A stretch of 64,000 nt of DNA from Coptis chinensis (Eukaryota > Streptophyta > Magnoliopsida > Ranunculales > Ranunculaceae). The notes below the pieces were generated by a model. It made no database searches, had not been told where the DNA came from, and worked only from the letters and a program-made list of their open reading frames with translations. The stretch lies in the NCBI GenBank assembly GCA_015680905.1, contig CM027382.1, positions 1 to 64,000 on the forward strand. The letters are read 5' to 3'. Of this stretch, positions 16,441-58,259 are shown piece by piece. Position numbers and translations under genes: made by a program. The number at the start of each line of letters is the position of its first letter. The stretch's first letter is position 1.

Positions 16441-17871
16441 ACGTGGCATGAGATATCTACCATCGAACTGAGTCATCTGGGAGGAGGATAAGGACTGAAT
16501 ATATACTGCGTGTCTGCGTCTTATCTAATACTGCAGGTGGTGATGTGGGCAGATCTCTTTCCCTTTATGTTGGTTGTGACGTTGTGTTTTGCTAGGAGAG
16601 ACACAGATATAATAAGATGTAGACGGCATATCGATTGAGATTTGTATAAATTGTTATCCCAAAATTCAGTCTGAGTAATATATTTATCGGTTGGGATTTG
16701 TATAGAAGTTGTTGTCACCAAAGACCAGTCTGAGTAGTACATACCATGTTCACAATTCTGGTTTCTCGATGACTTCAAATAACTTTTAGTAGTTCTTTTT
16801 AGTCTGCACTAGTCACTGATGGCATCATCAATTTACTATATCAAGAGTACTCACAGCGTATGTTTTTCTTTTCCCCTTTTTCTTTAGTCACTTGTGGCAT
16901 CATGTTGTCGTACATTCCAGCCAGTCTAAGTTCCACCGGCTGACCATCTCTTTCATTCCACCCTGTTTAAATATATAAGGTAATGACACTCAAAGTAACC
17001 ACTAACATGCTGAAGTATTATATAATGACGCCAATATAAAAAAATTTGTTAACTGATGGCTGCTGCACAGCTGAACATTTAGTCATCATAAAAAAGAAAA
17101 AATTAACACCAAATTTTAAGCGTAATGCTTCACTTCTACCTATCCCTTTGTTCCCATTTAACGTGGGAGAGCAGGCTGGTGATGACCCATGAATCATGTC
17201 ATAACTGGATAACTGGATATTTTTATCATTCATTTTAAGCTGTTATAGGACTACTTAATACCCTGTCAGCTTGAACTGCTGTGGTGGCTAGTCATCCATA
17301 AATGTTGGTGCTGGAGAATAAACCTTTATCCCTTAAGTTCTCAACTTATACGCAGACGCCATGTACACGGCGTATATGATCTGTTGTATCAAACCATTTC
17401 TGGATATGGGAACAAGATCCAACCCCACTGGTCAGGTTTGAAGCACTGGAAAATCAAACTTTGAACTTCACGATATTCAAATCCAATGAGGCTTAACAAG
17501 ATCTTGCTGACTTAATGTTAAATAGGAGAGTGGAAGAATCATAATCTTTGAATGTCTTTAACAGATTGCAACGCATAGTTGTATATAATCTTTAATATCA
17601 GGTACCGGCCTCAGTTAGCATAAAAAACAAATTGCAGTAGTACATGGCCAAGAGATACAATGACACTCCCTGACGGGGTATAATTACCGTCTCCAACACC
17701 TAAGTATAAATGTTGGCCTCCAATGCCAGAGAATCTTTTAGAATAAGATCATCATTTACAACAGCAGTACCAGAAGATACAGATGGGATGCAGAAAAGAA
17801 CCAAAATATGCAGAAATGAGAAATGTGATGAATTTTGGGCTATTCCTTTCTTTACTTCAAGCGTGAGAGGT
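16441..17871. other. Spacer between the convergent IST1-like and SERK-A genes
   Basis: This holds the 3' UTRs of the two converging genes and non-coding DNA. I see no exon, RNA gene or mobile-element terminus. The duplicated SERK/RH39 block begins close to 17857: sequence after TTCAAGCGTGAGAGG matches the SERK-B locus near 46900, and sequence before it does not. Confidence 0.5.
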
Positions 17872-55600: not shown

Positions 55601-58259
55601 AGAGATGATGGAATGCAACGATTCTTCGTGATGAATTCTCTACAGTGAGGACATTACACTCAATGTTGAATCCTTTTATAGGTGTCATGAAAAAAGGATT
55701 CATAAAGTCATTATGTACCTGTCTGTGCTTATTATGCATGCCTTAGAGTTGTTTCTACTTGTAAATTGGAACATGTTTTCTTTCATTTATCCCCCTAGGT
55801 ATTTTGATTTATTTGCAGGCAGTGCAAATGTTGGTTGATGAAGAATTTGAAGGCATTCTCCATCTGCGTACATCAACGTTGCACAAGAAGATTGCATCTG
55901 CTCGGCATGATTTTATAAAGCTTTCTGGTGCGGAAAACAAGCTGGAGGCATTGCTGCAGGTAGTTTCTATTCTCTGCATTACTAAAGTAAGTAAACAGTG
56001 TAAAACAGTGAAATAACTCTATAGTAAACACAACTACCAACACATGTGGTTAGCAGCACTTTAATGATGATAACTGGATACATGGTATGTTATTTTAGAC
56101 AAGGCAATGGAAATGGTACTCCATAAGATCGTTTTCTATTCTTTGTTGTCTTTATGCTTTGGATTTTTTGTTATTGCCTATCAAAGTTGTGTCAAACTTA
56201 TGCAAGTACACATAGTCCTGGACCGGGAAACCCAATCGGTTTTAGCAATTTTGTGTCTGCATATACACTGTAGACAGCCCATCAAAAAGATGTAGCCTGG
56301 TCTCCATCAACGAAAAATAGAAGAAAAAAAAAAACTTGGTTGGTGATCCTCTGTATGTTAATAACATAGCACCACTTATATATCTTCCGAGTTAAACAGC
56401 TAGCACTTTTTTCAAGAATCAAAATACTCCTCAGTGGTACTATTCCTTACTATATATATGGCTTTTTGATCATATGCCATCACAGGTCCTTGAGCCGAGT
56501 TTGTCAAAGGGAAATCGTGTAATGGTGTTCTGCAACACCTTGAATTCTAGTCGCGCTGTAGATCATTATCTCAGTGAAAATCAAATTTCCACAGTGAATT
56601 ACCACGGGGAGGTGCCAGCTGAACAAAGGTGAGTTAATTCCTTTTGATTTGTTTTTGTTTAACTTTAATCTTTATATATGTTAATGAAATTTGCGATGTG
56701 TTTCTAGTTTCCAATTCACCTCCTATGCATTGTTTCTGATTTGGATTCTTATGTGCAGAGTCGAAAACCTCAAGAAGTTTAAGAGTGAAGATGGGGATTG
56801 TCCCACGTTGGTTTGCACAGACTTGGCTGCTCGAGGGCTGGACTTGGATGTGGACCATGTCATTATGTTTGATTTTCCCTCAAACTCTGTATGTATTTTA
56901 TTTCGCCTGGTATTTCACCTCATTTATTGTTCTATTGACTCTCTTATAAGTTTTCCCATTTCCCCATCGAGTTACTTCAGTGAAAATCTGACCTGACTGT
57001 TGCTTGATGGTATTTTAGATTGACTACCTCCATCGCACAGGAAGAACTGCTCGTATGGGAGCTAAAGGTATGTTGCTTTACTTTTGTTTGATTTCGTATG
57101 AGGGGGGGGGGACTAATCATAGTACAAAATGCTTGGCATAAAGCCTAATACTGCAGTATTTTCCACGAAACGGCACGATAGACTCTATTATTTATACAGT
57201 AGCCCAGCCTCATCTACTGTCAAAGTTTGAATAGTTTTTCAGCCGCCAATATATTGACAGGAACAGAATTTTTTTCTACAGAATTACTAGTTATTGCATA
57301 CAACAACTGAAATAATACTAGAATTTAATTCATATCAAATTCAATTGTAAGTTCTACATGTGTCAGAGAAATGGAAAGATCACTTGTTGGCTACCAAACT
57401 AAGTTTATGCTTTGTCAACACGCATTGTTTTATCAAAATTTTATTTGTCTGCAGCCATTTCCTACATGATTATCTATAGTTGCTCAGTTCACTTCTAGCT
57501 TTGAGTTTGAATATGTGCTTTGGTGCTATGTGGATCCATAGAGCCATAAGCAGTTTTATACACACTTCTGCTTTCATGTAGCCACCTAAAAGTACTTTTT
57601 ACTTTAGATGATGCGCAGAAAAGTCTTATACATGAAAACACACATAGTTGAAATATCTGTCAAACCTACAAAATTTCTTATCTTTGCAGGCTAATGTATG
57701 TTCCAGTTAACTAAACTGATTTATTGTAACAGGTAAAGTAACAAGTCTGGTTGCGAAGAAGGACACCAGTCTGGCAGCCCGAATTGAAGAAGCGATCCGG
57801 AAGAATGAGAGCTTAGAATCTCTCACGGTAGATAACTTCAGAATGGCCAGCGACAAGGCTCGAGTAAGTTTGAAGGGTAAGAGCAGTACTGTAAGAGCCT
57901 CAAATCAGAAAAGTAAGAGTGAATTGGCAAAACCCTCTAGAGGCCGTGGGAAAGTAGTAGCTGTTGATACATCACGGCGGAGAGCTGTTGATACGTCACG
58001 GCAGAGAACTGTTGATACATCACGGCGGAGAACTGTTGAACCCAAAGCCGGAAAAAGATCTGCACCACCAACCAAAACTGGAAGACCAGCAATTAAAGTC
58101 TCAAAACTGTCCAAGCCATCCTCGGCTAGTGTCTCAAAGAAAGCTACACTAGGTGGGAAGAAACCTGCAGAGAGAAGGAAGTCTAACGCTGCGAAACCAG
58201 TCTCAAAGCTCAATGTTGTGGGGTTTAGGGGGCGGACTTCTTCCTTGGTCAAATCATAG
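52654..58259 (+). CDS. RH39: DEAD-box ATP-dependent RNA helicase 39, chloroplast (copy B, intact)
   Basis: RH39 is a chloroplast DEAD-box helicase; in Arabidopsis it is needed for the hidden-break processing of 23S rRNA. Exons: 52654-53208, 53410-53505, 53603-53791, 55118-55258, 55819-55959, 56486-56628, 56759-56888, 57019-57067, 57733-58259. They total 1971 nt, giving 656 residues. A Ser/Phe-rich N-terminus ([18 protein letters not shown]) suits a transit peptide, and a poly-Thr run follows. Motifs: Q region ([21 protein letters not shown]), Walker [31 protein letters not shown], motif III as TATM instead of the usual SAT, VMVFCNT, ARGLDLD, and [10 protein letters not shown]. The C-terminal extension is basic and holds [11 protein letters not shown] repeats. 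The start was chosen at 52654 because the ATG farther upstream has no helicase-family or transit-peptide character. All splice sites are GT-AG. Confidence 0.95.
54330..54840. mobile_element. Fold-back MITE-like repeat in RH39-B intron 3
   Basis: The ends are dense in CGAGTAGCGAGTACT and its inverse, and the interior has GATTAATCGG-type repeats and an AT-rich core. A 9-bp perfect inverted repeat, CGCTACTCG (54363-54371) and CGAGTAGCG (54381-54389), lies at the left edge. RH39-A ends before this point. Exact borders and target duplication are unclear. Confidence 0.5.

Follow-up and report, generated by a model that had tools for sequence, protein, structure and literature searches.

A probable copy-number-variable tandem array of SERK genes carrying a truncated helicase neighbour in Coptis chinensis

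SERK proteins, as a rule conserved, serve as co-receptors common to receptors for hormones, development and immunity. Tandem clusters of their genes are an already known kind of locus. Five SERK3/4/5-type genes of Medicago truncatula (MtSERK2-6) lie in tandem within 33 kb, and their duplication together with splice variants may point to a defence role (PMC3061892). Arabidopsis has the tandem pair BKK1/SERK4-SERK5, one member of which carries a deletion in some ecotypes (PMC4606071), and apple has the tandem pair MdSERK8/MdSERK9 (PMC6307271). The locus described here lies in the first 64,000 bases (the window) of contig CM027382.1 (C6) of the Coptis chinensis assembly GCA_015680905.1, which comprises 936 Mb in 116 contigs. 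There, SERK genes are combined with a DEAD-box helicase gene, for which we keep the label RH39 of an initial annotation as a name for an RH39-like gene. Very probably, the window cuts a tandem array of variable copy number, founded by one join and reshaped by changes in unit number, in which the 5' end of RH39 travels as a passenger. The array resembles the Medicago cluster in holding several tandem SERK genes at one place, but it appears to be of SERK1/2-like type, includes a helicase 5' fragment in its unit and differs in copy number between two assembled versions. It shares tandem SERK genes, one of them damaged, with the Arabidopsis locus, which comprises two genes and for which the accessible part of the report mentions no passenger gene or larger array. 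The apple locus is likewise a tandem SERK duplication but a single pair, and the accessible text mentions no truncated neighbouring gene. The titles and abstract openings listed from the open-licence literature yielded no SERK array with a helicase fragment and no haplotype difference in SERK copy number. In these listings we met no counterpart of the passenger helicase, of the apparent SERK1/2-like type or of the copy-number difference between haplotypes.

Comparison of the window with itself recovers two units with a common gene order, SERK on the minus strand, an intergenic region and RH39 on the plus strand, as initially annotated. Positions 17856-23749 match 46899-52741 at 92.2% identity over 6,011 columns. 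The 5' part of RH39 matches in three further stretches (26007-26473 with 52730-53166, 34585-34962 with 53379-53767, and 46607-46896 with 53763-54027). Unit A spans 17856-46896, approximately as proposed, but the duplicated part of unit B covers only 46899-54027 and does not extend to 58259. The duplicated stretch stops within RH39 intron 3, between the end of exon 3 at 53791 and the start of exon 4 at 55118, and the annotated break in this intron is thereby borne out. Exons 4-9 of RH39 (54028-58259) have no second copy within the window in the self-comparison, and the only full helicase of the window is found in unit B, also as annotated.

The join between the two units recurs on a second contig. 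C36, an unplaced contig of 321,562 bases read at positions 1-120000 and over its final 500 bases, matches the window in reverse, with C36 position 111392 corresponding to window position 1 and C36 position 1 to window position 62015. Between the same flanks, C36 carries nine SERK-containing segments (labelled c1-c9) and the window three. The join occurs at five places on C36 and, together with that of the window, is shared by all six cases examined. Five of the six are identical over 27 bases (GCGTAAATTTGTTGTTTCAAGCGTGAG), and the sixth differs at one base, T instead of A. On each contig (2/2), the SERK copy furthest to the left has a different, native-looking 3' flank, which is alike in both contigs. 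Internal units hence share one junction, and other flanks are found only at the two array ends. RH39 exons 4-9 are confined to the right end, and some units are without the join, having lost it by deletion. The shared joins and the different flank of the leftmost copies point to one initial event whose product was later amplified, and a single founding junction is well supported. An uncut RH39 intron 3 was seen in RH39-B only. The short words at the join, previously taken as shared between both sides, come from different parents, TTTGTT from RH39 and TTCAAGCG from SERK, with GT separating them. Microhomology at the join was thus rejected.

At this locus, a SERK-type co-receptor kinase gene lies head to head with an RH39-like DEAD-box helicase gene. 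One illegitimate join with a 2-bp filler has fused RH39 intron 3 to the point 16 bp past the SERK stop codon, where the SERK side of the join begins in SERK-B. The resulting tandem unit, as the shared junction shows, comprises SERK, the shared upstream region and RH39 exons 1-3. Unequal crossing-over between units probably altered the copy number, leaving three SERK segments in the window and nine on C36. Transposons have entered the units and deletions have fused neighbouring ones, unit A being read as two units of this sort. Each contig has one nine-exon RH39 at the right end, since exons 4-9 belong to that unit alone. Beside it stands the sole open and uninterrupted 11-exon SERK of each contig, SERK-B in the window and c9 on C36. 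Where a SERK copy lies to the right of a join, its original 3' flank is gone and it continues antisense into RH39 intron 3. The locus lets one follow the stages in which a gene cluster is assembled and broken down by a single join, by exchange between units and by transposons.

The SERK copies on C36 differ in exon number. Four copies have 11 exons (c1, c3, c8 and c9) and c6 has 10, with partial copies of nine exons, two of them damaged (c4), seven (c2), six (c7) and one (c5). Exon 6 of c8 is cut by a long terminal repeat (LTR) element flanked by GAGTG. The SERK copies differ from each other by 1-5%. Copies c8 and c9 are the closest pair in SERK (1.5%, Kimura two-parameter distance, K2P), but in RH39 exons 1-3 no pair is more distant (4.4%), a pattern that exchange between units would leave.

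Most likely, C36 represents the other haplotype and dovetails with the start of C6, because the flank mismatch is low and no third RH39 exon-1 locus exists among the 24 matches of the exon-1 search. Mismatches to the window number 309 in 18,115 columns on the left and 34 in 4,470 and 53 in 3,245 columns on the right (0.8-1.7%). E <= 6.1e-14 is reached by six of the 24 exon-1 matches, each of which lies on C6 or C36, against E >= 4.6e-10 for the remaining 18. C36 could instead be a locus of its own that arose by segmental duplication of this chromosome end, since it goes on for about 210 kb past the C6 start and since, for one 1.4-kb piece beyond that start (C36 118.5-119.9 kb), the 40 candidates scored out of 114 gave no second full-length match. 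We consider this unlikely, as the low flank mismatch and the exon-1 search speak against it and a dovetail of an other-haplotype contig with the C6 start would explain both the extension and the unmatched piece. An array that is mainly an assembly artefact, with haplotypes or reads stacked as false tandem copies, is less credible still. C36 is unplaced and has local indel clusters, but the copies are 1-5% apart and carry different insertions, three insertions are bordered by target duplications specific to them (window 23750-26011, C36 c4 and C36 c8), and the join is present on two contigs. The least probable account, and a very improbable one, is the annotated single tandem duplication yielding two SERK genes and one helicase, for although the single junction type in all copies examined and the two 11-exon SERK genes of the window uphold one founding event that copied SERK and RH39 exons 1-3, the third SERK segment of the window, the nine on C36 and five more joins show that the locus did not stop there, and the simple two-copy model was rejected. 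It would survive only if C36 and the third SERK segment were both errors of assembly.

Several points nevertheless weigh against an array of variable copy number. The basis is the assembled sequence, in which units could be collapsed or misordered. The copy numbers are those of the assembly; the unequal crossing-over is inferred. C36 contributes 120,500 bases only, its status as the other haplotype is likewise inferred, and its unmatched 1.4-kb piece means that it reaches beyond the start of C6. Single-nucleotide indels on C36 affect RH39 exons 2, 8 and 9 (3/9) and three of six other exon-like pieces tested. Because such indels are spread across other C36 exons, the frameshifts of this contig, including those of c1, c3 and RH39-c9, are not trusted, and we rejected them as real lesions. 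The single-base indels in the full-length RH39 copy of C36 may be assembly errors. C36 seems to prolong the assembled start of C6, by the approximately 210 kb given above. A telomere at its far end was rejected, with TTTAGGG/CCCTAAA absent from the final 500 bases.

Table 1. Coordinates of the array features in the window.
Feature	Position	Strand	Description
SERK-A, leftmost copy, own 3' flank	17856..22364	-	11 exons, AG/GT splice sites, frame shifted as assembled
LTR element in RH39-A exon 1	23750..26011	.	2.26 kb, 282-bp LTRs, 5-bp target duplication ATACC
RH39-A, truncated, two pieces	26012..34962	+	26012-26473 exon 1; 34585-34962 exons 2-3; split by 8.1-kb insert
Helitron-like insert	26474..34584	.	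8.1 kb, CTAG 3' end
LTR-element piece	34963..37417	-	retroviral SH3-like domain; cut on the left, meeting SERK A' at GCAAC on the right
SERK A', third SERK segment	37418..40471	-	exons 1-7 (ectodomain) and upstream sequence
Copia-type element	40710..46607	+	RVT_2; 5.9 kb; about 0.71-kb LTRs
RH39 exon 3 end and intron 3 start, left side of join	46607..46896	+	matches 53763-54027
Founding tandem-duplication junction (well supported)	46897..46898	.	RH39 intron 3 / GT / SERK 3' end
SERK-B, intact gene	46899..51362	-	11 exons; coding sequence 46915-51362, 1875 nt, 624 aa plus stop
RH39-B, full DEAD-box helicase	52654..58259	+	9 exons, coding sequence 1971 nt; exons 1-3 in duplicated part, 4-9 outside

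The most fitting reading of unit A is that a deletion leading from RH39-A exon 3 into an element inside the next SERK copy has merged two degraded units. The stretch 34963-46607 holds an LTR-element piece, the third SERK segment and a Copia-type element. Unit A is enlarged by inserts that are absent from the initial annotation. Copy c4 of C36 bears the LTR element of 34963-37417 whole, at the same place in intron 7 and with GCAAC on both sides, and unit A is therefore read as two fused units. The self-comparison hence supports the repeat itself but not unit A as one unit. The LTRs of the element in RH39-A exon 1 diverge by 3.7% (K2P, 281 sites) and those of the Copia-type element by 3.2% (K2P, 707 sites). 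The flanks of the Copia-type element form no target duplication, so a clean insertion was rejected, and the mismatch is as after deletion or recombination.

The 8.1-kb insert in RH39-A is read as Helitron-like from its 3' end. Its CTAG stands before a host T (TTCTAAGG). Of the 39 other genome matches to this end that were scored (40 of 729 candidates), 29 finish one or two bases beyond it and the remaining 10 extend 4-20 bases beyond it. A CTRR end before a host T, in a repeated family ending there, characterizes Helitron 3' ends and is present in this insert. Helitrons begin with TC after a host A and make no target duplication, and related elements encode a Rep-helicase; the 5' end of this insert was not recognised, and 212 bp of RH39 are missing to its left. 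The insert contains a ketoacyl-synthase fragment (28142-28615, Pfam E 4.4e-13) with 95% protein identity to a copy at C6:94252734, which looks like gene capture. A repeat of 86% identity links 12893-13385 in the left flank to 33487-34018 within the insert, and the left-flank repeat is perhaps a second element of this kind.

SERK genes are recognised by 11 exons, a signal-peptide exon, a leucine-rich repeat (LRR) ectodomain, a proline-rich SPP part, a transmembrane part, a kinase and a C-terminal LSGPR. SERK-B has the exon count, intron borders and SPP part of SERK genes (LRR receptor-like kinase subgroup II), with GT-AG at every intron, VAIK/VAVK, HRD and DFG motifs in the kinase and the same C-terminus as a SERK gene on contig C4. 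Its best solved kinase chain is BAK1 3tl8 (E 2.5e-178), and the next protein is BRI1 (2.7e-68). Among solved SERKs, the ectodomain scores 295.9 bits with SERK2, 292.2 with SERK1 and 256.8 with BAK1; the rows ranking above SERK2 belong to long LRR receptors whose scores cover several stretches. These scores and the C-terminus shared with the C4 SERK hint at a SERK1/2-like type. The C4 gene (C4:19626056) is the sole close SERK outside the array (87%, the next match being 74%), and no separate SERK3/BAK1-type locus was seen with one query (best 150 of 1404 candidates in both cases). SERK-A retains all 11 exons and their splice dinucleotides. Its exon 3 (21398-21328) has a 1-nt deletion, turning a run of five C into four, and a full SERK pair, as annotated, does not hold for the assembled sequence. 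The missing C could be real or an assembly slip. SERK A' is without exons 8-11, which encode the transmembrane and kinase parts; its 37418-40092 matches 20049-22755 at 95.8%, and the match goes on to 40471. An element of about 80 bp is located upstream of SERK exon 2 in all three segments (21937-22015, 39301-39379 and 50934-51015) and stands inverted at 14058-14137 in the left flank.

Differences among the open-frame SERK copies are mostly amino-acid changes, and the tests for selection give a mixed picture. In comparison with the conserved C4 SERK, where synonymous sites approach saturation, SERK-B has an omega of 0.10 and c9 one of 0.12. Within the array, B and c9 differ by 6 synonymous and 57 nonsynonymous changes, A and B by 4 and 37, and B and c8 by 1 and 58 (2 and 62 in another alignment). 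Pairwise fits against an omega of 1 gave 3.23 for B-c9 (p 0.0019), 3.56 for A-B (p 0.005), 20.9 for B-c8 (p 2e-7) and 2.28 for A-c9 (p 0.02). No difference from 1 was found for c8-c9 (1.5, p 0.38) and A-c1 (0.7, p 0.39). These pairs are not independent and were picked after a first look at omega, codons with gaps or stops were dropped, and p values are uncorrected over eight pairwise fits and 16 codon-position groupings. By part, B-c9 reached an omega of 2.6 in the ectodomain (p 0.09) and 3.4 in the kinase (p 0.02). The A-B result does not stem from errors on C36, as both copies lie on C6. Tree-wide omega was 1.93 for all codons in seven copies (log-likelihood gain over omega 1 of 6.4), 2.86 for codons 1-232 in ten copies (gain 7.0) and 1.42 for codons 275-624 in seven copies (gain 1.0). 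The runs with fixed omega also fixed kappa, at three values, and gains are taken against the best of them.

The chances are about even that the open copies only drift, under a constraint relaxed as the C4 SERK is conserved, with the excess stemming from chance or from few synonymous changes. In the kinase, several changes are radical and look damaging, at positions where the C4 SERK and Arabidopsis SERK1 agree. Measured against an intron-based expectation, nonsynonymous changes are not raised over seven copies (105 vs. 102.6 expected), three open copies (70 vs. 74.9) or the kinase part (29 vs. 39.5), and synonymous changes are low (18 vs. 32.8 in seven copies and 6 vs. 25.2 in the three open ones). 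The small gain for codons 275-624 fits drift as well, as do codon-position tests that are not significant for B-c9 (25:26:12, p 0.054), A-B (p 0.086) and ten ectodomains (21:30:20, p 0.27). Drift predicts an omega near 1, however, and the fits for B-c9, A-B and B-c8 lie well above. Nonsynonymous counts exceed the intron-based expectation for B-c9 (56 vs. 38.0) and the seven-copy ectodomain (56 vs. 37.6), and varying codon positions among B, c8 and c9 are distributed 32:32:12 (p 0.005) compared with 23:24:21 in A-c3. The adjacent RH39 shows a different pattern, with 3 synonymous against 6 nonsynonymous changes between B and c9 over 646 codons, but nine changes are a weak control. At ectodomain codon 95, the open copies have tyrosine, except for c9 with asparagine; histidine 60 is changed to tyrosine in the damaged c3 and c6. 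We tentatively suggest that the array might represent rapidly diversifying SERK co-receptors, with selection for amino-acid change in the open copies and the C4 SERK keeping the old task, and regard relaxed constraint as somewhat likelier. If diversifying selection did act, the array would supply modified co-receptors or decoys, for example against pathogen proteins attacking SERK kinases, and copy number itself would vary between plants. A SERK array with variable copy number and mainly amino-acid differences would make a co-receptor arms race testable, beyond the partner receptors.

DEAD-box helicases carry a series of motifs from GSGKT to HRTGR. RH39-B reads through all nine exons, and its coding sequence has GSGKT, DEAD (in exon 4), TAT and HRTGR; a Pfam DEAD match falls on exon 1. 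RH39-A is interrupted by three insertions. The truncated RH39 pieces, most likely passengers, have neither the DEAD motif nor the C-terminal half of the helicase. Arabidopsis RH39 is a chloroplast DEAD-box helicase (PMC5442247), and the window gene, for which the name is a label only, resembles it in being a full DEAD-box helicase, unlike its truncated copies without the DEAD motif. Matches to RH39 exon 6 at 92-97% occur off the locus at C9:67.88 Mb, C9:68.48 Mb, C4:42.47 Mb and C2:60.23 Mb, and are perhaps dispersed exon fragments carried by mobile elements.

Further left in the window, open frames at 3473-6352 resemble CSTF64, as recognised by eye. CSTF64 and SERK1 are near neighbours in Arabidopsis. 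If the CSTF64-like identity holds, the window locus would be the ancestral SERK1 position.

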